Assembly: GCA_019752045.1 (NCBI GenBank)
Contig: JAIEMP010000011.1
Coordinates: 124,001 to 188,000 of the forward strand
DNA length: 64,000 bases
Source of the DNA: Chitinophagaceae bacterium
Lineage (GTDB): Bacteria; Bacteroidota; Bacteroidia; Chitinophagales; Chitinophagaceae
Direction of reading: 5' to 3'
This document shows positions 392 to 64,000 of this stretch, one piece after another. How positions within the stretch are numbered: position 1 is the first letter of the stretch; each line of letters opens with the position of its first letter. Made by a program: the position numbers and the translations under genes. Under the pieces are notes generated by a model. It was not told the DNA's origin and ran no database searches. It was given only the letters and a program-made list of their open reading frames with translations.

Positions 392-821
392 GTGGCCCCT
401 CCAAACCTCCCCCGAGGGGAGGCTTTCTAAGGCACAGCCCACGCTATTCAAAGGTGAAGAATAATGTTACGCTATTTAAAAATTTAATAGTCCCGTATGG
501 ACAAAAGCTTTGTATAAAAAATGATAGTGTTCATGAGCGTCACGTAGAGACGCAACCTGGAAGGAAGACTAGAAGTGGATTGGCAATAATTAGAGTGGTT
601 GAAGTGTGTTGAGCAAAGAACAAAACTTGATGTGGTAGTTAAATAGAAAGTATGAGGTATACGGTGCCGTCCTTCTCCTTGGGAGAAGGAAAAGAGGATG
701 AGGTTGATGAATAGAATTCAAAACGTACAGGAGTGCGACGCAACAGTAACTCAATAGATGCTTAGTAGCTGGTAACATAAAAGTAAAAAACAAAAAAAAT
801 AAAAACATAAACGTTTAAACA
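392..821. repeat. ilvN-ilvC gap filled with dispersed repeat modules
   Basis: There is no credible gene here. From about 394 there is a GC-rich palindromic start (CCCCCGAGGGG), followed by AAGGCACAGCCC at 429-440 and CGCTATTC. A second module has TTGATGTGGTAG at 627-638 and then an inverted repeat CCTTCTCC/GGGAGAAGG near 671-689. A third has GAATAGAATT at 709-718 followed by GTACAGGAGTGCGACGCAAC. Related copies of these modules lie at 3608-3830 and 8500-8650 and inside the helicase gene near 62.86 kb. The last 40 bp before ilvC are A-rich and probably hold its 5' leader. Confidence 0.7.
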
Positions 822-3607: not shown

Positions 3608-3965
3608 AGAGGCGGCCCCCTCTAACTCCCCCCGAGGGGGAGGATGCCACACACAGCCCTTGCTATTCATAGTAGTTTGAAGAAAATCATAGAGGTTGAA
3701 TTTTGTTGATGAAATAACGAAAGTTGATGTGGTAGATAAATAGATTGTAAATGAAATGAAGTACCACTCTTTCCTTTCGGCCTGTCCCGATTTTTTCGGG
3801 AGGGAAAGAGGTGGAGAAAGGGGCCGTGGAAATGAAGTGGAGAAAGGCGCCTGCACTGAACATGTGTTAGTTGAATAATTCGGTAATTTCCGAAACGATT
3901 GCCTGCTGTTGTTATTCAGATATGTATCTGAAAAAATATTTTGTACTAAAACCTGCATATATACG
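3608..3965. repeat. ilvA-gltB gap: second copy of the composite dispersed repeat, plus gltB leader
   Basis: No gene is seen. The stretch repeats the plan of 392-780 in the same order. First comes a palindromic GC-rich part (CCCCCCGAGGGGGAGG at about 3629-3644), then CACAGCCCTTGCTATTCA, then TTGATGTGGTAG at 3724-3735. An inverted repeat CTCTTTCC...GGGAAAGAG surrounds CCCGATTTTTTCGGG. From about 3870 the sequence becomes AT-rich and probably holds the gltB promoter and leader. A longer reading of gltB from a TTG at 3909 is not preferred because the family starts just before the catalytic cysteine. Confidence 0.65.
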
Positions 3966-47123: not shown

Positions 47124-47343
47124 CATCCCAAAGGTTTGTGATGATTTGCTTTCTGCAGCAGCGAAGCGGAGGACACTGAGACCAAACAGCAACAAAAAGA
47201 TCGAAGTAAATGATGAAGTAGCTTAGTTCTTTAATCCCGAAACTTTGGGATGATTTGCTTTCAACCGCAGCGAAGCGTAGGACACTGAGACCAAACAACA
47301 ACAAAAAATATCGAAGTAAATTATTAAGTAGCTTAGTTCTTTA
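47124..47343. repeat. two tandem split-repeat units next to the CRISPR array
   Basis: Two roughly 110-bp units (47124-47233 and 47233-47343). Each starts with a GATGATTTGCTTTC-type sequence matching the 5' part of the CRISPR repeat and ends with GCTTAGTTCTTTA, matching its 3' part; unit 2 continues TTTAACAAC like the repeat end. Between these ends lie about 68 bp with shared words CAGCGAAGCG, AGGACACTGAGACCAAAC and ATCGAAGTAAAT. ATCCC-AAA and TTTGGGAT arms form a hairpin at the unit junction (47234-47251). The gap 46873-47123 before them holds no gene. Confidence 0.65.
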
Positions 47344-47378
47344 ACAACAGGTTCTTTGCACGGCTGGCTGGTAACACC

Positions 47379-49652
47379 GTTGTGATTTGCTTTCAAATTG
47401 TATTGTAACTTAGTTCTTACACAACAGCACTTGTATTAACAAACCTTCTTGTCTGGTTGTGATTTGCTTTCAAATTGTATTGTAACTTAGTTCTTACACA
47501 ACTTTACAAGATGCTTTATGCGATGCTTGACGTTGTGATTTGCTTTCAAATTGTATTGTAACTTAGTTCTTACACAACAATGAATTATGCAGTATCATTG
47601 CAGGGCATGTTGTGATTTGCTTTCAAATTGTATTGTAACTTAGTTCTTACACAACCATGTCTTTGAATTTTGGTACAATGTAGGAGTTGTGATTTGCTTT
47701 CAAATTGTATTGTAACTTAGTTCTTACACAACGATTGGGATGCAGGTAATGTGGCCCCCGGTGTTGTGATTTGCTTTCAAATTGTATTGTAACTTAGTTC
47801 TTACACAACGAAAAAAGTTCTGAAACCAGCCTTGCGGCGTTGTGATTTGCTTTCAAATTGTATTGTAACTTAGTTCTTACACAACTGTCGTTCATTTCAC
47901 TGCCAAACGGATGCAGTTGTGATTTGCTTTCAAATTGTATTGTAACTTAGTTCTTACACAACTTGTTGTAATTATTTGAACGTGTGGAAACAGTTGTGAT
48001 TTGCTTTCAAATTGTATTGTAACTTAGTTCTTACACAACTAGAGGAATTTGACTAACTGCTTCGTCAAGGTTGTGATTTGCTTTCAAATTGTATTGTAAC
48101 TTAGTTCTTACACAACATAGTAAGATTTTTGAATGTGATTACTTTAGTTGTGATTTGCTTTCAAATTGTATTGTAACTTAGTTCTTACACAACTGATCAG
48201 ATCATTGTAGTTAGTTGCTATTGGTTGTGATTTGCTTTCAAATTGTATTGTAACTTAGTTCTTACACAACTGTTAGTGGGTGGTTCTGGTTGTTGATCTG
48301 TTGTGATTTGCTTTCAAATTGTATTGTAACTTAGTTCTTACACAACTAATTATCATCTCTTATTCTACTATTAGCAGTTGTGATTTGCTTTCAAATTGTA
48401 TTGTAACTTAGTTCTTACACAACATTATTCACAGAGCCATCAGAAACTTTGCTGTTGTGATTTGCTTTCAAATTGTATTGTAACTTAGTTCTTACACAAC
48501 GCCCTCTTTTCGTTCCTGCTTTTGTGCCAGTTGTGATTTGCTTTCAAATTGTATTGTAACTTAGTTCTTACACAACGCCACCCCTGCATACCATAGACCG
48601 GCTGTGGTTGTGATTTGCTTTCAAATTGTATTGTAACTTAGTTCTTACACAACGCTCTGAATTGCTGGGAATAGTTTCCCATTGTTGTGATTTGCTTTCA
48701 AATTGTATTGTAACTTAGTTCTTACACAACGGTCAGCCTGGTTCCAGTGCTCAGGCACAGTTGTGATTTGCTTTCAAATTGTATTGTAACTTAGTTCTTA
48801 CACAACTAAATCTGCAAAACTTAATGTGCAAAAGCAGTTGTGATTTGCTTTCAAATTGTATTGTAACTTAGTTCTTACACAACTCCCACTTTTTGGGCTG
48901 ATAATTGACTTTTGTTGTGATTTGCTTTCAAATTGTATTGTAACTTAGTTCTTACACAACATCTTGTTGAATGTTAAATACTTTGTGAGTGTTGTGATTT
49001 GCTTTCAAATTGTATTGTAACTTAGTTCTTACACAACTTCTTCGAAATCGTCCAAGTCCATGTTCTCGTTGTGATTTGCTTTCAAATTGTATTGTAACTT
49101 AGTTCTTACACAACACTATCCAGCGTAGAACTGCCATGTTGTAGTTGTGATTTGCTTTCAAATTGTATTGTAACTTAATTCTTACACAACTCGGCTCAAA
49201 ATATGTACGTGGTGATATGCGTTGTGATTTGCTTTCAAATTGTATTGTAACTTAGTTCTTACACAACGGTAGGGCTGGAGGATCAGGACGGGCTGAAGTT
49301 GTGATTTGCTTTCAAATTGTATTGTAACTTAGTTCTTACACAACTTTGCAAAAAACAAATGAACTACCTGCACAGTTGTGATTTGCTTTCAAATTGTATT
49401 GTAACTTAGTTCTTACACAACGTAGAACTTTTTATGAAACTTGTTTTTCATGTTGTGATTTGCTTTCAAATTGTATTGTAACTTAGTTCTTACACAACTT
49501 TAAATATAATTGCTTCAATTTGTTTGCTGTTGTGATTTGCTTTCAAATTGTATTGTAACTTAGTTCTTACACAACTAATAGCCATTCCATGCTTAAATCC
49601 GGACAGTTGTGATTTGCTTTCAAATTGTATTGTAACTTAGTTCTTACACAAC
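47379..49652 (+). CRISPR. type II-C CRISPR array, 30 repeats and 29 spacers
   Basis: The repeat is 47 bp, beginning GTTGTGATTTGCTTTC and ending CTTAGTTCTTACACAAC. I counted 30 copies from 47379-47425 to 49606-49652, with 23 spacers of 30 bp and 6 of 29 bp. All copies are identical except the one at 49144-49190, with G to A at 49178. The + strand is the crRNA strand: the tracrRNA anti-repeat complements the first 25 bases of the repeat, and a + strand terminator follows the last repeat. No spacer origin could be tested here. High repeat identity and regular spacing suggest an active or recently active array. Confidence 0.98.
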
Positions 49653-49688
49653 ATGTTTGGCTAAAAGCCTTATCTGCACTGCATTTAG

Positions 49689-49721
49689 GGGTGATTTTAG
49701 GATTAAAAAATCACCCTTTTT
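49689..49721 (+). terminator. terminator of the pre-crRNA transcript
   Basis: GGGTGATTTT/AAAATCACCC hairpin with an AGGATTAA loop, then TTTTT, 37 bp after the last repeat. It supports + strand transcription of the array, opposite to cas2-cas1-cas9. Confidence 0.88.
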
Positions 49722-49828
49722 ACCGCTTTTTTAAATCCTGTTTCTTCGAAATAAGTTGTTCAACAGTGATTTTCTTTGCATGGGTTAAAAATTGTAACCC
49801 GCAGCAAGTCTCACCCAAGAGGGGGATG

Positions 49829-51078
<1,250 letters not shown>

Positions 51079-51150
51079 AGGTAGTTAGGATTTTGGCTTC
51101 AATAAAAACAAAAAAAACTGCATTTTATTGTGTAGCTTTTTAGGAATGTA

Positions 51151-54100
51151 TTAATCTCCTATTTTAATTATCTTACCTAAACAATTTACCCTTACTTTAT
51201 GTGCATTAAAGGATGCAGAACTGAGTTGAATTAATTTTTTCATTTCTCTTGCTTTTTTATCTCGTAAATCTTTAGTTTCTAAATGATGTCTCAAGAAATA
51301 TTGCCCTGGGGCAATATTTTGTATCCTATACAAATGCTTGCTTAATAAATTATACATATTATTCTCTATTGCATTTGAAATGTCTTCAAACGATAAACCA
51401 TATATAAATAATTCATTTTGCTGAAGCGATGTAATCAGCTCCCAATTATCAAGTGGTAGATTATTTTTTACTTCATCACTGCAATCAAATTCAGTATTTA
51501 AAATTTTATCCCAAATATCTACTGGTTTTTTTATTATAACTGGAACCCCTGCAATTTTTCTTTCAATTGCCTCACCAAATGTCACAGCGTTCTCTTGAGT
51601 TGTACCAGCTTTATCTTTATAAATTGCAATATGATGATTATTTCCAGGCTTGATGAAGTCAATTAAGGTAGCACCATCAGGTATTTTTATATTATTTTTT
51701 AGAGGAAAAGTTTGTCCATTTAATGAATAATGAATAGCCTTTACCTTAGTCAAATTTGTTTTACACCGGACAGACTTTATTTGAATGCCTTTTTCTTCGT
51801 TTAACCAAAGGGGTGTTTTAAATGCTTCCTTTACATTATTGTTAAACTGTAATAATCTTTTCTCAACTATACTTCGAACCCCAAAATCAACAATTGAATC
51901 TAGCTTTACTTTTATTTGATCTTTTTCAACAATAATCTTTTCACCCGTTTTCTTGTCTATTTTTTCTTTTGTTTTGACAGTCTCATTGCCATCAAAAAGC
52001 ATCCCTTGTCCAGCTCCTAATTTATATTTTATTACAATTTCTTCACTAAATGAACTATCTCGGTTGTACTGTTTTATCTTTCCATAAATAAAGTCTTCAT
52101 TTAGTTTTCCCCTTGGTGTTAATGTTTCCTGCACCTTTATTACCTCTTTCCCTTTCTTAATATGGTTTATGTTTTTAGTTGCTACTTTTTTCCCCGCCTT
52201 GAAACTTACTAAGATGTTGTCAGTAGCTTCCATGGCATCATTTACAAAACCTTTCCATGGCTCAGGAAAGCGGCGGCCATTTTCTTTTAAATCTCTACGT
52301 GTTTTATATTGTTGATTTAACTGGTTGAGTTTTTGAATAAAAGATTGTTTTGTTAAGGCTACAACTAATGCGTCAATGGCATGGTGCCGGTGATCATCTC
52401 TTTTACTCCAGTTACTGATTACTTCAATTTCATGTGTGCTCCCGTCTTCCCTTTTGATTTTTTTCAGCTCTGTTTGACCTGCAGCTTTATATTTCTCAAA
52501 ATTTAATTGCTGCAATACATTATTAATTCCCCAGTTTTCCCTCAAATAGTCGGTTACGCTGCCACTGGTACTGTACACATTGCGACAGATATTCAATAAC
52601 AAGTTTTTTACTTCACGGGAAATATAGGCGGTATCTCTCATTTGCCTGTTAATAAAGTCGTCGGGAATTTTATCTCCGGGCATTAATAAGTAATTCAGTT
52701 TAGCTCTGCTAATACCTTCCTTTTTATAAAAGTGTTTTTTTACAAACTCTGTGTAGTTATGGAATTCCTGTTCGCCTAAATTTTGTATATAATCAAAAGC
52801 TGTCGTATTGTCTTTATCTGCATTAAATTTCTTTCTTGCAATTGTTTTATTTGAAAAACTATCATCAAAAAACCGGCTCCTTGGGATAATATGTTCGATT
52901 TCATAATCCCCATTGAAAAGTTGATTTAACGAAATTGGTTTAGTTGGCTCATAAGGAGAGACACCACCAAATTCTTCCCAGAGCTTAACTCTTTCAATAT
53001 CACGCCTGCTTACTGTTGCAAAGCCGAGTTCATGGTGTAATCGCTCAGCAATTTTTTGGTGTCTGTCGTTTGTTTTATTATTGCGACTATAAGTATTATT
53101 TCTTTCTTCAGCATTTTGTTTCAACTCTCTTCCTAATTCAACTCTTATTTCATCAGGCTTCCCTAATGTCTCATCTGCAATAATTGCATTTACCAGATTA
53201 ATTACCTGATTTATTATTTTCTCTACAACAGGGTTTCTAAGTGAGTTTTTTGAGTATAATTCTAATTTATCAAGTAGCGGTCTTGACTCGTTTTCACTTA
53301 GAGTTAAATAATCGCTATGCCGATAACCTGCTGCATCACAAGCTTTACTGTAATGCAATCCGTTCATTAGGTGAGGTAATATTTTGCGATAAGCTTTCGT
53401 ACTGATGCCGCCATAACCGGCTTTTGTAAAGTCTAATTTAGCAAGGGCTTTCGCTTGATCTAATGTAAAAGAAAAGTCTTCCTGTAAATTTTTAACCAGG
53501 CTTTCAACTTCTTCAACAGAGTAAAGTAAATGCCACAACCTGTACAAAGGTTCTTTTTCAAAATCGGGCTCAATTACAAATTGTTCTTTTGCTTCACCGG
53601 TTTGTTGGTTGGCAACAAGCTTGCTTTTTTGCAATAAGTTAAATTGAAGCACTTCTTCTCGTTCTCCTTTTAATGCCTTTTTTATAGCAGATACAGTTTT
53701 ATTCCCTTCAAGACTGTCTTTCTTAAGATTGATATAAAAATCTTCCGCTGGTTTTAACCCAAGCATTTTTTTAAGGTTGGTAACAGTTATCTTTTCGTTT
53801 TCATTGAGATATTGAAAAAGTTGTTGTTTTTGTTCAATTGGAATTTCTACAGCAATCCCAGTCTTAGTTTTTATAGAAAGATTATTTATATCCTGCCAAA
53901 CTTTAGCTATTTGAAATAGGGGAGAACTTTTAGGAACAACTTTTGGACGAATAATTTTTGGGTTACCAGTTTCATCTTTTAATATATTGCCTTGCTTATC
54001 TTTTGCAAAAGTCTGTTCAAATCGACAGCTGCTTACAAGTCCCTTTTGACTTTTTAATGGTCTTTGGAAATAAATAATCTTATGAAAAAGCTTTGTATAA

Positions 54101-54801
54101 TTTTCATCCGTTAATATTTCTGGATAATACTCTTTTTGTTTTTCCCATATTTTATTAAACTCAGCTTGATAGCTACTACGTAGAAATATGTTTTCTTTAA
54201 TCCTGAAAAAATGATTTTCTTTCAAGTGGTTGTAAAAAAACTGTCCGATCGTTAAATTAGAATCTTTAATAAATAATTCCCTGTCGTTGATTAAATCTAA
54301 GTAACCTTTCTTTTTAGGGTTCCGTACTTCACCGTCTTTGTCTGTGTTGTTTGATGACTCTGCTTTTTCTTCTTCATTATTTGCTTTACGGTTGCTTTTG
54401 TACCCTCTTTTTTGATTGAGGTGATAAAATATTCTGCCCAGCTCCTCTAAACCAATCTGTGTTTCAATTGCTTTTGCACGCAAGCCATACAATTCTAGTG
54501 AATTAAGTTTAAATAAATCTGCAGTGGGTTGCATGTTTAGTTCGGTAAGTAGTTTTACCAATTTCCATTTGCGCATTTTGTAACGATGTCCGCCTCTGCG
54601 CATCCCTCTTTTTATACGTCTGTTTGCATTTTTACTTATTGCATTACCCTTTGTAAACTCATCACTCTCATCTGAGTTTAATGGAATAATGCGGCTACCC
54701 ATTCGAATAATTGAGTATTGTTCACTTTCATTTTCTGGCTCATGAAGATAGGCCCAGCCAATTGAGCCAACGCCAATATCTAATCCTAGTATTTTTCGCA
54801 T
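51151..54801 (-). CDS. cas9: CRISPR effector nuclease Cas9, type II-C
   Basis: 1216 residues, longer than the usual 1000-1100 of II-C. RuvC-I has D8 in GLDIGVGSIGWA. The Arg-rich bridge helix (RRIKRGMRRGGHRYKMRK, residues 61-78) is followed by the recognition lobe with a charged Asn/Glu/Lys stretch near 140-166. RuvC-II has E555 in EIRVELGREL. The HNH domain has E636-H637 in YEIEHIIPRS and N651. RuvC-III has H806/H807 and D810 in HHAIDALVVA, then the PAM-interacting C-terminal region. All catalytic residues are present, so it should cut both strands. It starts at an ATG and diverges from the tracrRNA gene; cas1-cas2 follow. Confidence 0.97.
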   Translation of the reverse strand: MRKILGLDIGVGSIGWAYLHEPENESEQYSIIRMGSRIIPLNSDESDEFTKGNAISKNANRRIKRGMRRGGHRYKMRKWKLVKLLTELNMQPTADLFKLNSLELYGLRAKAIETQIGLEELGRIFYHLNQKRGYKSNRKANNEEEKAESSNNTDKDGEVRNPKKKGYLDLINDRELFIKDSNLTIGQFFYNHLKENHFFRIKENIFLRSSYQAEFNKIWEKQKEYYPEILTDENYTKLFHKIIYFQRPLKSQKGLVSSCRFEQTFAKDKQGNILKDETGNPKIIRPKVVPKSSPLFQIAKVWQDINNLSIKTKTGIAVEIPIEQKQQLFQYLNENEKITVTNLKKMLGLKPAEDFYINLKKDSLEGNKTVSAIKKALKGEREEVLQFNLLQKSKLVANQQTGEAKEQFVIEPDFEKEPLYRLWHLLYSVEEVESLVKNLQEDFSFTLDQAKALAKLDFTKAGYGGISTKAYRKILPHLMNGLHYSKACDAAGYRHSDYLTLSENESRPLLDKLELYSKNSLRNPVVEKIINQVINLVNAIIADETLGKPDEIRVELGRELKQNAEERNNTYSRNNKTNDRHQKIAERLHHELGFATVSRRDIERVKLWEEFGGVSPYEPTKPISLNQLFNGDYEIEHIIPRSRFFDDSFSNKTIARKKFNADKDNTTAFDYIQNLGEQEFHNYTEFVKKHFYKKEGISRAKLNYLLMPGDKIPDDFINRQMRDTAYISREVKNLLLNICRNVYSTSGSVTDYLRENWGINNVLQQLNFEKYKAAGQTELKKIKREDGSTHEIEVISNWSKRDDHRHHAIDALVVALTKQSFIQKLNQLNQQYKTRRDLKENGRRFPEPWKGFVNDAMEATDNILVSFKAGKKVATKNINHIKKGKEVIKVQETLTPRGKLNEDFIYGKIKQYNRDSSFSEEIVIKYKLGAGQGMLFDGNETVKTKEKIDKKTGEKIIVEKDQIKVKLDSIVDFGVRSIVEKRLLQFNNNVKEAFKTPLWLNEEKGIQIKSVRCKTNLTKVKAIHYSLNGQTFPLKNNIKIPDGATLIDFIKPGNNHHIAIYKDKAGTTQENAVTFGEAIERKIAGVPVIIKKPVDIWDKILNTEFDCSDEVKNNLPLDNWELITSLQQNELFIYGLSFEDISNAIENNMYNLLSKHLYRIQNIAPGQYFLRHHLETKDLRDKKAREMKKLIQLSSASFNAHKVRVNCLGKIIKIGD

Positions 54802-55997: not shown

Positions 55998-58457
55998 ATG
56001 AAATGGATTTTAACTTGTTTATGTGTAGGAATGGGTTTGCTTTGTTTTGGAGAAAATCAACCTGAACGTGTACTGCAGGCCAGCAAAGTGGTAAAGGCAC
56101 CTGTTATTGACGGTGTGTTGAACGAAGCGATCTGGCAAACAGCTCCCGTTGCACAAAATTTTACCGTTAACAGTCCCAATTACGGCGAAGCATCTGCACA
56201 TCCAACCAAAGTGTACATTGTATATGATAACTCATCTATTTACATTGGTGCTTATATCTACGACGATCCCGAAAAAGTACGCACACAGTTAACTGCAAGG
56301 GATGGTGAAAGCAGGCAGGATGTGGATTATTTTTCTGTTTTTTTTGATACGTATAATGATGATCAAAATGGTTTCCAGTTTGTAGTAACCAGCCGGAATG
56401 TGCAGAGCGACGGAAGGTTGAGCCCTAACCGGAATTCTCAATTTGGTCCGCCAAGTGATTACAGCTGGGATGCAGTTTGGGAAAGTAAAGTAACGATGCA
56501 GAAAGATGGATGGGTTGTTGAAATGAAGATTCCTTATTATTCACTCCGCTTTGCAAAAAAAGAAAAACAGGACTGGGGGCTCAACTTTCAGCGTTATGTG
56601 CGCCGCAGTAATGAAAGTTCTTACTGGAACAACATCAACCCAAACGAAAATGGATTTGTAAACCAGTTTGGCAAATTGAGTGGCCTGGAAAATCTTGAAC
56701 CGCCGCTTCGTTTATCTTTTCTTCCATACATCACGGCAGGTTACAGAACCACACCCACATCAAAAGGAAGAGTGAATGAATTTTTACGTAACGGTGGTAT
56801 GGATGTTAAGTATGGAGTGAACGAAAGTTTTACGTTAGATATGACACTGATCCCCGACTTTGGTCAGGTGATTTCTGATAATGTCATCAACAATCTTTCT
56901 CCGTTTGAAGTGCAGTTTCAGGAAAACCGGCCATTCTTTACTGAAGGAACAGAGATCTTTAATAAAGCAGGTTTGTTTTATTCAAGAAGAGTGGGAGCCA
57001 CACCATCCGGTTATGATTCGGCACGGAGTAGAGGATCAACAGACAGTACACGTATTATTTCAAACCCCGGGGTTGTACAGTTATTTAATGCCACTAAGTT
57101 TTCGGGACGTACAAAACAAAAAACAGGCATTGGAATATTTAATGCCATCGGTGCACAAATGTTTGGCGAAATTGAAAACATTTATACAAAGCAACGTCAA
57201 CGCATACAAACAGAACCATTCACCAACTACAATCTCATAGTCATTGATCAGGCATTAAAAGGACGCTCATCCATTACATTGACCAATGCCAATGTAACAC
57301 GCAGCGGTGCAGCAAGAGATGCCAACGTAACCGGGCTTGATGTGTTTTTGTTTGATAAAAGTAACCGGCATGGTTTGCAAACAAAATTCGATTACAGTAA
57401 GATTATGGGCTTAAAACCATACGAAGGGTTTAAGAGCATTTTGAGCTTTGGAAAAATAAGCGGAAAAATTCAGTACAACCTGTTGAATAATATTGAGAGC
57501 GATCGTTACGATCCCAACGACCTTGGTATTTTAGGTGCTCCCAATGAAGTTACTACTCAGTTCAGGATGAGTTATAACCAGCTTACACCAACTAAAAAGT
57601 TTAATGCATGGAACGTTGGTTTCAGTGTACGTCATGAAATGCTGTACAAACCGTTTGTGTTTACCAATATCCGCTATGGTGCCAATGCATTCTGGTTCCT
57701 GAAAAATTTCTGGGATGTGAGTGTGGGGCTTGAAACACAACCACTCTGGCAAAAAGATTATTTTGAATTACGTACACCCGGAAAGTTTATGCGTAAAGTA
57801 CCATGGGCTTTTATGCGCATCAACGGAAGTACCGACAGCAGAAAAAAATTATTTGCACGTTTTACATTTGGCCTTGCAGAATCAGTTGATATAAAAAACG
57901 ATGCGTTTATTATCATCCATCCCGGAATCCGTTATCGTTTTGGAGACAGGTTAAGTATGGAAGCCGATTTAAGAATCAACGACGACCGTGGACAATTTGG
58001 ATATGCGTTTTTACGTGAAACCAACGGCGATCCCATAATCGGCCGCAGAAGAAACCGTGATGTAACTACGCTTATCACCGGTATTTATAATTTCACCAGC
58101 CGCATGAACATTACATTGCGTGCAAGACATTACTGGAGCAGGGTAGAGTACAACAGTTTTTATAATGCCGATGCCGGCGGATGGTGGGTGAGCAGAGCAT
58201 TTATACCGGGGCAGGATCAGAATTTTAATGTGTGGAACATGGATGTGTTTTACACCTGGGATTTTAATTACGGCAGCCGTTTTATTATTGGCTGGAAAAA
58301 CTGGCTGGCGAATGATTTTCCGGTTGATGGTGACCGTTATAAAAATTATGTACATAATGCGGGTCGTGTACTCTTATCGCCTAAAGGAAACGAGTTTACT
58401 GCACGGATGATCTTTTTCCTTGATTCACAAAAATTGAAACGAAAGAGAAATCAGTGA
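55998..58457 (+). CDS. DUF5916 outer-membrane protein with N-terminal CBM9-like domain
   Basis: The ATG at 55998 gives 819 residues with a Sec signal (WILTCLCVGMGLLCFGENQ); a reading from 55821 overlaps the previous gene and is rejected. The N-terminal 200 residues (APVIDGVLNEAIWQTAPVAQ ... VYIVYDNSSIYIGAYIYDDP) resemble a carbohydrate-binding family 9 domain. The rest is a large beta-rich region with EVQFQENRPFFTEGTEIF, the DUF5916 signature, and barrel-like strands to the end. Members are surface or outer-membrane proteins of unknown function. It lies 20 bp after a terminator and must have its promoter there or within the upstream gene. Confidence 0.88.
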   Translation: MKWILTCLCVGMGLLCFGENQPERVLQASKVVKAPVIDGVLNEAIWQTAPVAQNFTVNSPNYGEASAHPTKVYIVYDNSSIYIGAYIYDDPEKVRTQLTARDGESRQDVDYFSVFFDTYNDDQNGFQFVVTSRNVQSDGRLSPNRNSQFGPPSDYSWDAVWESKVTMQKDGWVVEMKIPYYSLRFAKKEKQDWGLNFQRYVRRSNESSYWNNINPNENGFVNQFGKLSGLENLEPPLRLSFLPYITAGYRTTPTSKGRVNEFLRNGGMDVKYGVNESFTLDMTLIPDFGQVISDNVINNLSPFEVQFQENRPFFTEGTEIFNKAGLFYSRRVGATPSGYDSARSRGSTDSTRIISNPGVVQLFNATKFSGRTKQKTGIGIFNAIGAQMFGEIENIYTKQRQRIQTEPFTNYNLIVIDQALKGRSSITLTNANVTRSGAARDANVTGLDVFLFDKSNRHGLQTKFDYSKIMGLKPYEGFKSILSFGKISGKIQYNLLNNIESDRYDPNDLGILGAPNEVTTQFRMSYNQLTPTKKFNAWNVGFSVRHEMLYKPFVFTNIRYGANAFWFLKNFWDVSVGLETQPLWQKDYFELRTPGKFMRKVPWAFMRINGSTDSRKKLFARFTFGLAESVDIKNDAFIIIHPGIRYRFGDRLSMEADLRINDDRGQFGYAFLRETNGDPIIGRRRNRDVTTLITGIYNFTSRMNITLRARHYWSRVEYNSFYNADAGGWWVSRAFIPGQDQNFNVWNMDVFYTWDFNYGSRFIIGWKNWLANDFPVDGDRYKNYVHNAGRVLLSPKGNEFTARMIFFLDSQKLKRKRNQ

Positions 58458-58643
58458 TGAGTGATGAGTAATCAGTGATGAGTGTTGAGTAGTGAGTGAT
58501 GAGTAGTGAGTGATGAGTCGTGAGTGGTCGAGTCCTGAGCGGCAGTCGAGTCCTGAGCGGCAGTCGAGTCCTGAGCGGCAGTCGAAGGACGGCCAGTCAA
58601 TCGAGCGCAAGTCGAGATTGACGTGCTTGAACTTTATTTCCCG
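58453..58643. repeat. tandem repeats downstream of the DUF5916 gene
   Basis: First a low-complexity run of GTGATGAGT/AGTGAGTGATGAGT words (58453-58526), then an exact 18-bp unit GTCGAGTCCTGAGCGGCA three times (58527-58580), then degenerate GTCGA words to about 58616. No coding potential is credible. The stretch fills the space between two convergent genes. Confidence 0.85.
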
Positions 58644-60957: not shown

Positions 60958-63555
60958 TCACCATTTGTTCAGTTGGGCCTGCATTCGCCTGATCCTGTCT
61001 TCCAGCTTTTCACTGGAAAGATTATTGCGGTTTAATCCGTCGGCAATGATGGGAAAGCTGAGCGGAGTAAACCGTTCAGGAAAAGTGAGGATGATCTTAC
61101 TGTTTTGAATCCGTTCAAATGCATTTCGCAATCTCACTTCTTCCATCTGCTGATCAAATACTTCCTGGTAGGCTTGCCGAAGCAATACATTTTTTGAATC
61201 ATATTCACTAAACACATTAAACAGTAAACCGGCAGAGGCTTGCAGATGTCTGGCTTTGGTTCGTTCTCCCGGTGCCGATTGAATAATCAATCCGCCGATC
61301 ACAGCAATATCTCTGAATTTTCTGCGGGCCATTTCAGTTGCATTTACACTGCGTTGTATATCGACTGTGAGTCCGTCCATTGTAAACAATTCGTTTGCAT
61401 TGCTGTCGTCAACAGGTATTGGTTGATCGCACAATAATTCAAATCCATAATCATTCATGGCAATGGAAAATGTAAGCGGAGCAATTTTGCCGATACGATA
61501 AGCAATGATTGCACTCATGGCTTCATGCACCTGCCGGCCTTCGAAAGGGTAGACCAGCAAATGAAATCCATCTTTGCTTTCATGCTGTTCAATCAGCAAC
61601 TCATCATCTTTCGGGATATGCGAAAGTTGTTGTTGCAGATCAAATAGTGCGGAGAGATGTTGCAATTCAGGAACCGGATCGGCCAACGCTTTGTCGTGGT
61701 CTGATGCGATATAATCAACCACATCATTAAATGTTTCTCTTAATTTTTTTCCGAGGTTGGCAGTTAAACTCATTCGTCCGCCGTTCCAGCTGGGCACAAT
61801 GGTTTTTTTAGAAGTTGATTTGCGTACAAAGGCCGTCATGTCTTTAATCTGCACCAGTTCCAGATTTCTTCCCGCCAGTGTAAACGAATCACCCGGATCT
61901 AATCGGCTGATAAAATATTCTTCAATCACTCCAACAAAACCACCGCTGACCATTTTTACTTTCAGCATTACATCACTCACAATGGTGCCGATGTTCATCC
62001 GATGCCGCATGGCTATGCGGCGGTTGGTGATTTTATAGACGCCATTAATCACTTCAATTTTTTTGTAATCATCATATTGCTGCAATGCTTTACCACCTTC
62101 CACTAAAAAACGCAGCACTTCTTCCCATTCATCTTTCAGCAAATCACGGTAGCAATAAGTTGATTTGATTTCTTTAAATATTTCATCGGGCACAAAACCA
62201 TCACCCACAGCCAATGTGTTGAGATATTGTGTGAGCACATCAAAGCAAAGCAGCATAGGTTCTTTACTTTCGATCATGTTTTCTGCAACAGCACTTTTTA
62301 ATGCAGCCGCTTCAACCAGTTCTAATGAATGAGTAGGAAGGAAATAGATTTTACTCACTGCATCGGGGCTATGACCGCTTCGTCCGGCACGTTGTAAAAA
62401 ACGTGCAACACCTTTTGGTGAACCTACCTGTATAACGGTCTCTACCAGACGAAAATCAACACCCAGATCTAATGAAGCGGTACATACCACTGCCTTTAGT
62501 TTAGCCGTATGCAATGCTTCTTCAACCCAGGTTCTTAATTCCTGTTCAATACTTCCATGGTGTAATGCAATGGCGCCGGCCAGTTGCGGTGCATGATTCA
62601 ACAGTTCCTGATACCATCGTTCACTCATACCTCTGGTGTTGATGAAGATGAGCGTGGTAGTACTTTGTTCAATAATGGGAATGACTTTTTCAATCAGTTT
62701 TAAACCAAGATGACCCGCCCATGGATATTTTTCTATTTCATCGGGTAAGATGGATTCAATTTCAATTTGCTTTTTCATCTGGGCCTTAACAATCACTCCG
62801 ACCCCATCCATTGCACCCTCATTAATGTAACTGTGCGAATCATTTTTTTTATTTCGATTAAGCGAGGGCTGTGCCTTGGGTTCTTCCCCTTTGGGGGGGG
62901 TAGTGGGGGCTAGCAACACTTCTTTTGCTTCATCTAAATTGCCGATGGTTGCACTAATACCCCAAATCATTGGCATGCTATTGCTGTTTGCCTGTTGACT
63001 ATTGACTATTCTGCTTATGGCCAGCTCCACCTGCACACCCCGTTTACTTCCAATCAACTCATGCCATTCATCAACCGCAATGATTTTTACGTTACGAAGT
63101 AATTCAATGCTTCCTTTTTGTGCCAGCAGTAAATGCACACTTTCGGGAGTAATGATCAATACTTCGGGCATTTGTTTTTTTTGCCTGGCCCGTTCGGCGT
63201 TGCTGGTATCTCCATTGCGTATGCCAACAGTCCATTTCAGATTAAGGTCGCTAATGACCTCTTCCATCGCCCTGCCAATATCTTTTGCCAATGCCCGCAG
63301 GGGAGTGATCCAGATCAGTTGAAGTCCGTTTTTGATTTTGGTTTGATAACTGGCCGGATGCTCATTAATAAATTGAATCAAGGCACCCAGAAAAACCGAA
63401 AAGGTTTTGCCGCATCCGGTAGGAGCATTGACTAAACCGCTGTTGCCCTGAAGCATCTGTTGCCATGCCTCTTCCTGAAACGCAAAGGGGTGCTGGTTTT
63501 TAGCCGAAAGCCATTCCCGAATAACCTTGTAGCCTACTGAGCTGTGTAATTCCAT
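60958..63555 (-). CDS. ligase-associated DNA damage response DEXH-box helicase (Lhr-like)
   Basis: The ATG at 63555 gives 865 residues (a GTG five codons upstream is unneeded). Motifs in order: Walker A NAPTGCGKTFS, ITPESVHLLL, DEWH in IIAVDEWHEL, SAT in ISATIGN, LIFINTRG and QRAGRSGHSPD. The C-terminal part matches the Lhr-core winged-helix and beta-barrel regions. Between ISATIGNLDEAKEVLL and IVKAQMKKQIEIESILPDEI, about 35-40 residues (PTTPPKGEEPKAQPSLNRNK at its start) are encoded by a copy of the dispersed repeat found near ilvC, inserted in frame. The helicase motifs on either side are intact, so the protein is probably functional. Confidence 0.92.
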   Translation of the reverse strand: MELHSSVGYKVIREWLSAKNQHPFAFQEEAWQQMLQGNSGLVNAPTGCGKTFSVFLGALIQFINEHPASYQTKIKNGLQLIWITPLRALAKDIGRAMEEVISDLNLKWTVGIRNGDTSNAERARQKKQMPEVLIITPESVHLLLAQKGSIELLRNVKIIAVDEWHELIGSKRGVQVELAISRIVNSQQANSNSMPMIWGISATIGNLDEAKEVLLAPTTPPKGEEPKAQPSLNRNKKNDSHSYINEGAMDGVGVIVKAQMKKQIEIESILPDEIEKYPWAGHLGLKLIEKVIPIIEQSTTTLIFINTRGMSERWYQELLNHAPQLAGAIALHHGSIEQELRTWVEEALHTAKLKAVVCTASLDLGVDFRLVETVIQVGSPKGVARFLQRAGRSGHSPDAVSKIYFLPTHSLELVEAAALKSAVAENMIESKEPMLLCFDVLTQYLNTLAVGDGFVPDEIFKEIKSTYCYRDLLKDEWEEVLRFLVEGGKALQQYDDYKKIEVINGVYKITNRRIAMRHRMNIGTIVSDVMLKVKMVSGGFVGVIEEYFISRLDPGDSFTLAGRNLELVQIKDMTAFVRKSTSKKTIVPSWNGGRMSLTANLGKKLRETFNDVVDYIASDHDKALADPVPELQHLSALFDLQQQLSHIPKDDELLIEQHESKDGFHLLVYPFEGRQVHEAMSAIIAYRIGKIAPLTFSIAMNDYGFELLCDQPIPVDDSNANELFTMDGLTVDIQRSVNATEMARRKFRDIAVIGGLIIQSAPGERTKARHLQASAGLLFNVFSEYDSKNVLLRQAYQEVFDQQMEEVRLRNAFERIQNSKIILTFPERFTPLSFPIIADGLNRNNLSSEKLEDRIRRMQAQLNKW
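62803..62925 (-). repeat. dispersed repeat inserted in frame in the helicase gene
   Basis: On the - strand: CCCCCCCC-AAAGGGG palindrome, then AAGGCACAGCCC (complement of 62866-62877) and CGCTTAATCG. This matches 429-450 (AAGGCACAGCCC, CGCTATTC) and 3643-3670. The strings are shared exactly over 12 bp and more loosely around it. The right half, encoding the DSHSYINEGAMDGVG segment, may be part of the same insertion; its limits are not certain. Confidence 0.65.
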
Positions 63556-64000
63556 AGCTGTTGAAACCACGAATGTAAGTGATATGAAGCTGCTGTTTGC
63601 AGGCTAACAAAACAGTTTAAAGCGCCGAAGTTGAAACATTGAAACAAAAAATATTTGTAAAAGAAATTGTAATATAGTTTTATTTGATATACTTTCACTC
63701 TTTGCGATCACAATCGTTTAAATCCGTTTAGCTTTATTTCTCCATTCCTCTGAAACATTCCATTACCTTCTAAGTTGAGCTAAAGATATTTTATATGCAC
63801 TGTTGTTGCTGCAAGCAATGTACTGTTGTATGATGAATCCACTCCTGCAAAAAACCTTCTTAAGCTCCATTCCTGTTAAGCCATCCACATTAAACCACTG
63901 TTTATGCAACAACTGCTTAGCCTGTCCGTTTATCACCGTGCCATACATGCACTTCTGACTCCTTTTTATTTTCTGCTAGAACCTAAAAAAATGCTGCTTC
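63556..64000. other. gap upstream of the helicase gene, no gene supported
   Basis: 445 bp to the window edge. A 61-codon frame on the - strand (63763-63948) has no recognisable features. The promoter of the helicase gene is presumably here. Ligase or exonuclease genes often precede this helicase, but none is visible. Confidence 0.45.

Follow-up and report, generated by a model that had tools for sequence, protein, structure and literature searches.

Several described systems resemble what is reported here, each in a different respect. Rickettsia palindromic elements, a subject associated with the names of Ogata and Claverie, are reportedly short palindromic repeats that lie in frame inside the open reading frames (ORFs) of likely functional proteins, and inteins and homing endonucleases combine a nuclease read in frame within an essential gene with site-wise lineages and a presence/absence distribution. 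Repetitive extragenic palindromic (REP) sequences and REPINs, which go with REP-associated tyrosine transposases (RAYTs), consist of hairpin units in inverted pairs with a nuclease gene between the units, and some of their copies lie inside ORFs (passages of PMC3733652). The CGTC repeats, a class that includes the Rickettsia elements, apparently lack a dedicated transposase, and the passages on the Rickettsia elements in the same paper do not mention a DUF559 nuclease (PMC3733652). Small mobile repeats that keep the ORF in annotated genes are also known as the enterobacterial RU elements (abstract of PMC2759123), and the miniature inverted-repeat transposable elements (MITEs) of the Bacteroidota symbiont Cardinium are short copies that share their ends with a longer form (parts of PMC9769881). 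Here we describe a stretch of 64,000 nucleotides from a Chitinophagaceae bacterium (contig JAIEMP010000011.1 of assembly GCA_019752045.1, positions 124,001 to 188,000 of the forward strand; the window in what follows), in which the gene for a ligase-associated DNA damage response DEXH box helicase carries an in-frame insert. By sequence comparison this insert is a truncated and decayed copy of a dispersed palindromic element, and we consider it fairly likely that the element is a mobile one, which settles in frame in proteins and is mobilised by a DUF559 nuclease.

The reading frame of the helicase is open throughout the gene (coordinates in Table 1), and the insert APTTPPKGEEPKAQPSLNRNKKNDSHSYINEGAMDG adds about 31 residues to the common form of a loop between the first RecA domain, where the alignment to the structure 5v9x ends at residue 219, and the second, which starts near residue 293. 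The borders of the insert are approximate, and exact ones cannot be fixed. The initial annotation had its location right but made it too long, with 62803-62925 and 35-40 residues; it ends about 15 bases earlier, near 62910. The additional DNA begins with the palindrome AGCCCCC...CCCCAAAGGGG and continues with AAGGCACAGCCCTCGCTTAATC, and part of the latter is the 12-mer AAGGCACAGCCC, which stands in the window at 429-440 (+) and at 62866-62877 (-). With at most one mismatch this 12-mer occurs at 2 places in the window, where 0.20 are expected, and 1 of 100 shuffled windows reached 2. It had been proposed to be common to the ilvN-ilvC and the ilvA-gltB gap; it is present in the ilvN-ilvC copy, whereas the ilvA-gltB copy (3614 onward) reads CACACAGCCC. 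When the 107-nt insert is compared with the whole genome of its own organism by blastn, 9 matches at E<=1 are obtained, self included, the best others being a stretch of 46 nt with 80% identity (E 3.1e-5) and one of 32 nt with 88% (E 2e-4). The central proposal of the initial annotation, an in-frame copy of a dispersed repeat in the helicase, is thus borne out by the 12-mer, the blastn matches and the open frame, and a mere chance likeness is made very improbable by the same 12-mer and matches together with the genome-wide excess of the palindrome described below. What the helicase holds is a left-end palindrome with its tail. As the right end is not recognised and the palindrome is imperfect, with a broken outer stem, this copy is most likely a non-autonomous relic; folded as a single strand of 62 nt, it is no more stable than shuffled sequences (z -0.48).

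Comparison with relatives argues that this segment was added to the gene. The segment from SATI to PWAGH, which could be read in 79 of 80 related loci, has 82 residues here, 51 residues in 31 of the 79 and at most 78 in any of them, and none of the 79 carries the residues of the insert. Within the genus, 12 of 14 genomes are readable at this loop; left out are G009, the closest genome (97% over the helicase C-terminus), in which the contig ends inside the gene, and G013, which yielded no full helicase. Seven of the twelve have 51 residues, the gap in homologues that had been expected at the insert, two have 54 and 56, and three carry palindromic inserts, namely this genome (82 residues, left-end orientation) and the genomes G008 (78) and G004 (60), both with the right-end orientation. 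An ancestral origin of the segment is ruled out by the loops of these relatives and genus genomes. The sisters G004 and G005 (support 100/100) differ in the loop, and the helicase tree needs three changes, of which two are forced by well-supported branches. Since the inserts differ in orientation and in content, this one loop has probably received palindromic inserts more than once. In the wider set of relatives, GC-rich hairpins with 6 bp or more are found in 5 of the 79 loops, compared with 8 of 1580 windows taken as controls within these genes, and in none of the 48 loops of at most 55 residues. One of the five hairpin loops (L049) coincides in its coordinates with the G008 locus; another three (L052, L054 and L084) encode peptides such as ASPMGGGLEG, SFGEGWGEA and ARRGVGGEA, with hairpins in L054 and L084 of the CCTCTCC/GGAGAGG type that is also seen in one common type of DUF559 end; the fifth (L089), situated in a stretch rich in alanine, may have nothing to do with the palindromic inserts.

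The palindrome belongs to a family that is dispersed over the 4.16-Mb genome. With at most two mismatches, its pattern has 90+91 = 181 matches on the two strands compared with 5+8 = 13 for the reversed control, in a count in which one palindrome can score on both strands. Models of the element ends and a survey of base pairing were applied to 274 kb around the pattern matches of this genome, and they recognise 108 ends at E<=1, of which 77 are at E<=0.05; these E-values are partly circular because the models were built from copies of the same sequence that had been picked with the pattern, the helicase copy included. An end consists of an RGCCCCCT-like tag, about five bases, and then a subterminal hairpin of the TCCCCC-AAA-GGGGGA type, and by eye many left ends continue with a tail of the GCACAGCCC..GCTT type. 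Neighbouring ends within 700 bp are arranged as left(+)/right(-) in 21 cases, in the opposite order in one case and on the same strand in four. Where both ends are recognised, such inverted pairs span 80-291 bp, apart from one of 460 bp in the leucyl-tRNA synthetase LeuRS. Most copies found are short and gene-free. Longer copies have, again by eye, a common interior, for example the two interior segments from the window in Table 1. For the pairing survey the best hairpin of at least 4 pairs was taken per end, which 69 of the 77 ends possess, and 49 of these 69 have a loop of 3 bases. Stem pairs 5-7 covary, with the pairing preserved although both strands of the stem have changed; pair 5 is of Watson-Crick type in 31 of 33 distinct copies (18 C-G, 13 T-A; mean of shuffles 17), where pairs 1-4 are true by construction and pairs 5-7 somewhat favoured, because the best hairpin was chosen for each end. 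An Rfam search found nothing that reached the gathering score, either in the window or in the loci L129, L130, L001 and L009, and a known RNA family or intron was rejected on this ground as the identity of the inserts.

Table 1. Helicase gene, in-frame insert and intergenic copies of the palindromic element in the window
Feature	Position	Strand	Basis
Intergenic copy, left-end palindrome, ilvN-ilvC gap	394-430	+	nhmmer E 4e-5; AAGGCACAGCCC at 429-440
Interior of the ilvN-ilvC intergenic copy	574-652	+	Direct repeat D7 with 3671-3749, 79 nt, 76%
Intergenic copy, left-end palindrome, ilvA-gltB gap	3614-3647	+	nhmmer E 5e-7
Interior of the ilvA-gltB intergenic copy	3671-3749	+	Direct repeat D7
Ligase-associated DNA damage response DEXH box helicase, host gene	60958-63570	-	TIGR04121, 1045 bits (cut-off 850); translation
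In-frame insert APTTPPKGEEPKAQPSLNRNKKNDSHSYINEGAMDG	62803-62910	-	Loops of 79 relatives and 11 genus-mates; position by alignment to 5v9x
Conserved tail AAGGCACAGCCCTCGCTTAATC adjoining the left end	62856-62877	-	By-eye comparison with tails of other copies; exact 12-mer
Left-end palindrome AGCCCCC...CCCCAAAGGGG, decayed	62879-62911	-	nhmmer E 0.0005 (model includes the helicase copy); independent blastn matches

The helicase is not the only protein gene of this genome in which the element is read in frame, as had been anticipated. Of the 108 ends, 61 are enclosed by an ORF that extends 8 residues or more to either side, in a count that contains some spurious ORFs, and all 20 host ORFs that were scanned against NCBIfam match named families at 1e-20 or better, several of them below the curated cut-off. 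The families are TrpF, PurH, HemF, ValRS, IspG, a RarA-type ATPase, GcvP, the acetyl-CoA synthetase AcsA, LeuRS, AroA, gamma-glutamyltransferase, two PDH-type E1 proteins, adenine deaminase, MtaB, ArgB, a galactarate-dehydratase relative, a FadB relative, a UvrD/PcrA helicase and an ABC transporter. An end is recognised at E<=0.05 in 17 of these hosts, and the remaining three have weaker ends, with E-values of 0.09 (AroA), 0.1 (the galactarate-dehydratase relative) and 0.4 (UvrD). The ArgB of this genome (L290) has three short palindromic ends (E 0.2, 0.06 and 0.01), and the ArgB of the genus-mate G001 and of three other genomes (L203, L199, L212 and L221) has an N-terminal DUF559 fusion with inverted flanks. 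The peptides NPSTGSGQAPLKP and DFDSAQSSDVNPSTSLRT, found at the N-terminus of a LeuRS (L130) and in an AroA (L267), look as if they may belong to a second type of dispersed in-frame repeat. Outside ORFs of at least 90 residues, 11 of 47 ends begin a few bases from an upstream stop codon, and by eye some right ends lie directly 5' of a start codon, so that an element can fill a whole intergenic gap, as it may do at 394 and 3614 in the window.

Two of the five occurrences of DUF559 (PF04480) in this genome show a full-length form of the element. They lie in frame inside LeuRS and AcsA, score 110-111 bits in a Pfam scan, and are bracketed by inverted palindromic ends of the same type as those of the short copies in the same genome. 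At the LeuRS site, DUF559 is present in 3 of the 14 genus genomes (G000, G009 and G006), and in the remaining 11 the corresponding motifs are 40-43 residues apart, which is a presence/absence pattern within one genus; about four codons appear to be replaced, and the protein with DUF559 is longer by about 130-150 residues. A second LeuRS-like locus of G009 (L316) did not yield the motif. In G000, G009, G004 and G008, a second loop of LeuRS has short palindromic inserts (45 or 38 residues compared with 23-26), and in other genera the same second loop holds DUF559. In two further genomes (L167 of G135; L169/L198 of G026), LeuRS has two DUF559 domains at two different sites.

DUF559 in long proteins is no peculiarity of this genus. 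PF04480 is found in 76 of 147 Chitinophagaceae genomes, and among the 128 matches listed at 85 bits or more, 62 are in frames of more than 300 residues (two LeuRS frames with two domains each are counted twice), 39 in frames of more than 800 and 65 in frames of at most 220. In a sample of the phylum, 170 of 296 genomes have the domain, many of them in frames of more than 1000 residues, and by reading of motifs in the loci retrieved there, the hosts include type I restriction subunits, LeuRS and MetH. For closer study, 94 domains were used (97 rows, less two L198 rows that represent the same place as L169 and one of L231 with 41.7 bits); they were picked partly for long frames, and the proportions therefore describe a biased sample. 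Among them are 52 domains inserted in nameable hosts, 7 N-terminal fusions, 31 stand-alone domains and 4 without a host name, the hosts other than AcsA and LeuRS of this genome being named by their conserved flanking motifs and not by a family scan. Inserted domains occur in LeuRS (18 and 6, at two sites), MetH (8), IcmF (5), AroC (4), CinA (4), MetRS (2), adenine deaminase (2), and once each in AcsA, HsdR and an M23 peptidase; the fusions are to ArgB (4), ThrB, HisA and a nucleotidyltransferase. When the 170 nt on each side of a domain were searched for inverted repeats, with a threshold set at the 99th percentile of 260 pairs of control flanks taken at the same loci, 30 of the 52 inserted and 17 of the 31 stand-alone domains exceeded it, together 47 of 83. 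The fusions did so in 4 of 4 ArgB and 1 of 1 HisA cases and in neither the one ThrB nor the one nucleotidyltransferase case, and the domains without a host name in 1 of 4. Two end types are common, GCCCCCTNNA..CCCCCAAAGGGGG and CCTCACCCC..CCCTCTCCAAAGGAGAGGG, the second of which is referred to as type B.

The nuclease itself is conserved. In all 52 inserted domains E13, W17, R31, Q32, D41, D54, H58 and N86 are invariant (numbering of the L130 domain), and E52 is kept in 98%; D41, D54, E52 and H58 are presumably catalytic. By the family match and such active-site-like residues, the domain belongs with the Vsr-like nucleases of the PD-(D/E)XK type. Pairs from the same host site have dN/dS values of 0.11-0.33, and all scored pairs are below 0.51, values that are rough because many dS exceed 1; they support the view that the inserted nuclease is conserved under selection. 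All inserted domains except that of HsdR (51 of 52) fall into one clade (99/90; 52 rows with L183) of a tree that is based on a short alignment and in which the bootstrap had not settled. Some subclades mix AcsA, MetH, CinA, MetRS and adenine deaminase, others AroC and both LeuRS sites, and this mixture of host genes indicates that the element has moved between genes.

If DUF559 mobilises the palindromes, genomes with the nuclease would be expected to have more of them, and this relation is seen for the type-B ends. They occur in 48 of the 147 genomes, with no control match in any. At least 5 copies are present in 18 of the 66 genomes with a full DUF559, compared with 3 of the 81 others (p 7e-5), where ten genomes whose DUF559 matches are all weak or partial are classed as being without a full one. 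Counting only palindromes away from DUF559, the median is 3 in the 25 genomes in which DUF559 has type-B ends, compared with 1 in the 31 other DUF559 genomes (p 0.02), and it is 0 in genomes outside the survey of DUF559 flanks (p 4e-9). The first end type, searched as an exact pattern, has 10 matches in the present genome compared with 1 in the control, and few in other genomes.

The element thus has two inverted ends, each with a terminal GCCCCCT-like tag and a subterminal hairpin, and in the full-length form a DUF559 nuclease (PD-(D/E)XK, Vsr-like) lies between ends of this kind, everything being read in the frame of the host gene. As for the mechanism, the nuclease would probably nick or cut the hairpins of the ends, for which single-stranded or cruciform DNA may be the substrate, and would move its own copy as well as short copies in trans. 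Copies that break genes would be lost, and those that happen to be in frame at tolerant loops, presumably on the protein surface, would survive as harmless linkers or extra domains. In the helicase, the insertion would have taken place between the first and the second RecA domain, and the copy, now without its right end, would be decaying as a tolerated linker. It is in keeping with a DNA-cutting role of the domain that the DUF559 protein VsrA of Caulobacter, described as a Vsr-like PD-(D/E)XK endonuclease, damages DNA in vivo and is responsible for a DNA damage response in a mutant (parts of PMC12907096).

A number of observations weigh against this scenario. None of the comparisons caught a movement of the element, and its ends are not known to be cut. 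The interior of the short copies is, by eye, their own and not a shortened DUF559 gene, a target-site duplication was not found (in 9 pairs only; 4.8 shared flank words compared with 4.7 after shuffling), and the folding energies of five single-stranded copies are unexceptional. The three carriers do not cluster on the helicase tree beyond what shuffling of the labels gives, and a single gain with subsequent losses at this loop is formally conceivable. For 22 of the 52 inserted DUF559 domains, the 170 nt on each side contain no inverted repeat that exceeds the threshold, including all 5 IcmF cases and all 6 cases at MetH site 1, and the domain also groups by host site (IcmF, CinA), a pattern that inheritance or homing would explain as well as transposition would. 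Three genomes have type-B palindromes and no DUF559 match (G052 with 27 exact copies, G058 with 15 and G060 with 3), and G091 has 5 copies and only a partial match; candidate readings for G052 and G058 are another mobilising enzyme or the loss of an earlier one. Conversely, some DUF559 genomes without recognised type-B ends are rich in copies (G087 with 15, G115 with 13, G051 and G124 with 9 each).

Which other processes could have produced this distribution? The one that survives best, although we regard it as rather unlikely, is the spread of REP/REPIN-type palindromes by a REP-associated tyrosine (Y1, HUH) transposase, with DUF559 as a passenger or as a homing nuclease. The genome does have 8 Y1 transposase loci, the layout as inverted pairs resembles that of REPINs, some genomes have palindromes without DUF559, as just described, and in Bacteroidetes the TnpA_REP subclass 2.6 is flanked by atypical structures that have copies elsewhere (parts of PMC6006769). 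However, a loose search within about 1.5 kb, or less at contig ends, detected no element end at 7 of the 8 loci and at the eighth a single match with 3 substitutions, which is taken as chance, and the Y1/HUH enzyme was rejected as the linked enzyme on these grounds. Moreover, the GTAG tag beside the hairpin is not above background (6 of 77 ends; control 4.3%), and it is DUF559, by contrast, that lies between inverted ends in more than half of the inserted and stand-alone cases. A second possibility, which we consider improbable, is that selection retains the hairpins because they serve the RNA or the protein, for example in mRNA stability, attenuation or linker flexibility, and that their in-frame positions are adaptive and not a by-product of mobility. 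The covariation of the stems and the ends that start close to an upstream stop codon would agree with this, but the same covariation is expected if the palindrome is the substrate of a nuclease, related genomes have no hairpin at the same sites, the palindromes that further relatives carry in this loop are different ones, and the Rfam search remained negative. It is more improbable still that the inserts are taken out of the transcript or the protein in the manner of introns or inteins: the length of the additional segment in LeuRS and the inverted ends, which could pair in RNA, speak for it, but the inserts keep the frame open, for which removal at the RNA level would create no need, the four loci searched gave no intron family in Rfam, and no intein (Hint) domain is found in LeuRS and AcsA by Pfam scan (E<=1e-5). 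Ordinary lengthening of a variable helicase loop with a fortuitous likeness to the repeat, for which speak the range of 51-78 residues in relatives and the fact that most long loops have no GC hairpin, is the least credible explanation in view of the blastn matches and the exact 12-mer as well as the palindromic inserts of G008 and G004 at the same loop.

The element, with DUF559 as its proposed mobilising enzyme, can now be set against the known systems. The resemblance to Rickettsia palindromic elements that had been noted for the helicase holds as far as appearance is concerned, with short in-frame palindromic repeats in ORFs, the hosts scanned here being named families throughout, and with absence from close orthologues in the helicase and LeuRS, the two that were compared. 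The sequence and the phylum are different, the CGTC tag is not above background (1 of 77 ends; control 2.7%), and two features go beyond the Rickettsia type, namely the probably recurrent inserts at one loop and the inverted tag-plus-hairpin pairs that in full-length relatives enclose a DUF559 nuclease. In comparison with REP/REPIN sequences and their RAYT, the nuclease is DUF559, of the Vsr-like PD-(D/E)XK type and not an HUH tyrosine enzyme, there is no excess of GTAG and no linked HUH gene, and many copies lie in frame in conserved enzymes. With inteins and homing endonucleases the element shares the in-frame nuclease in an essential gene, the site-wise lineages and the presence/absence pattern, but the two proteins scanned have no splicing domain, the ends are inverted palindromes, and the same type of end is dispersed in a short form. 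The RU elements are other repeats in another phylum, and the abstract of PMC2759123 mentions no nuclease-bearing form; the Cardinium MITEs derive from an IS982-family element, lie mostly between genes or in other mobile elements and less commonly inactivate genes (parts of PMC9769881).

Apart from the helicase and the copies of the element, the window contains a type II CRISPR-Cas system at 47302-54801, with Cas9 at 51154-54801 (-), Cas1 at 50173-51078 (-), Cas2 at 49829-50176 (-) and an array with a period of 77 bp. Intergenic short tandem repeats of the AGTGATGAGTAGTG type are found at 58432-58585, where an 18-base unit includes three copies of GTCGAGTCCTGAGCGGCAGTCGA in register.

Among the matches listed from the open-access literature, preprints excluded, there was no description of DUF559 with palindromic ends or of in-frame DUF559 insertions. 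We put at about even the chances that these elements represent an undescribed class of mobile elements in Bacteroidota, in which a Vsr-like DUF559 nuclease between inverted tag-plus-hairpin ends is read through in frame without splicing, enters essential enzymes, stays there as a permanent additional domain and spreads short in-frame copies that reshape loops of many conserved proteins, including the present helicase. If this is true, there would be a candidate enzyme for in-frame palindromic repeats, and a selfish nuclease would be retained by fusion inside LeuRS, MetRS, MetH or AroC, as the fused nuclease could not be lost by a stop codon or frameshift without harm to the host enzyme. The proteins of these bacteria would thereby receive a steady supply of new loops and domains.

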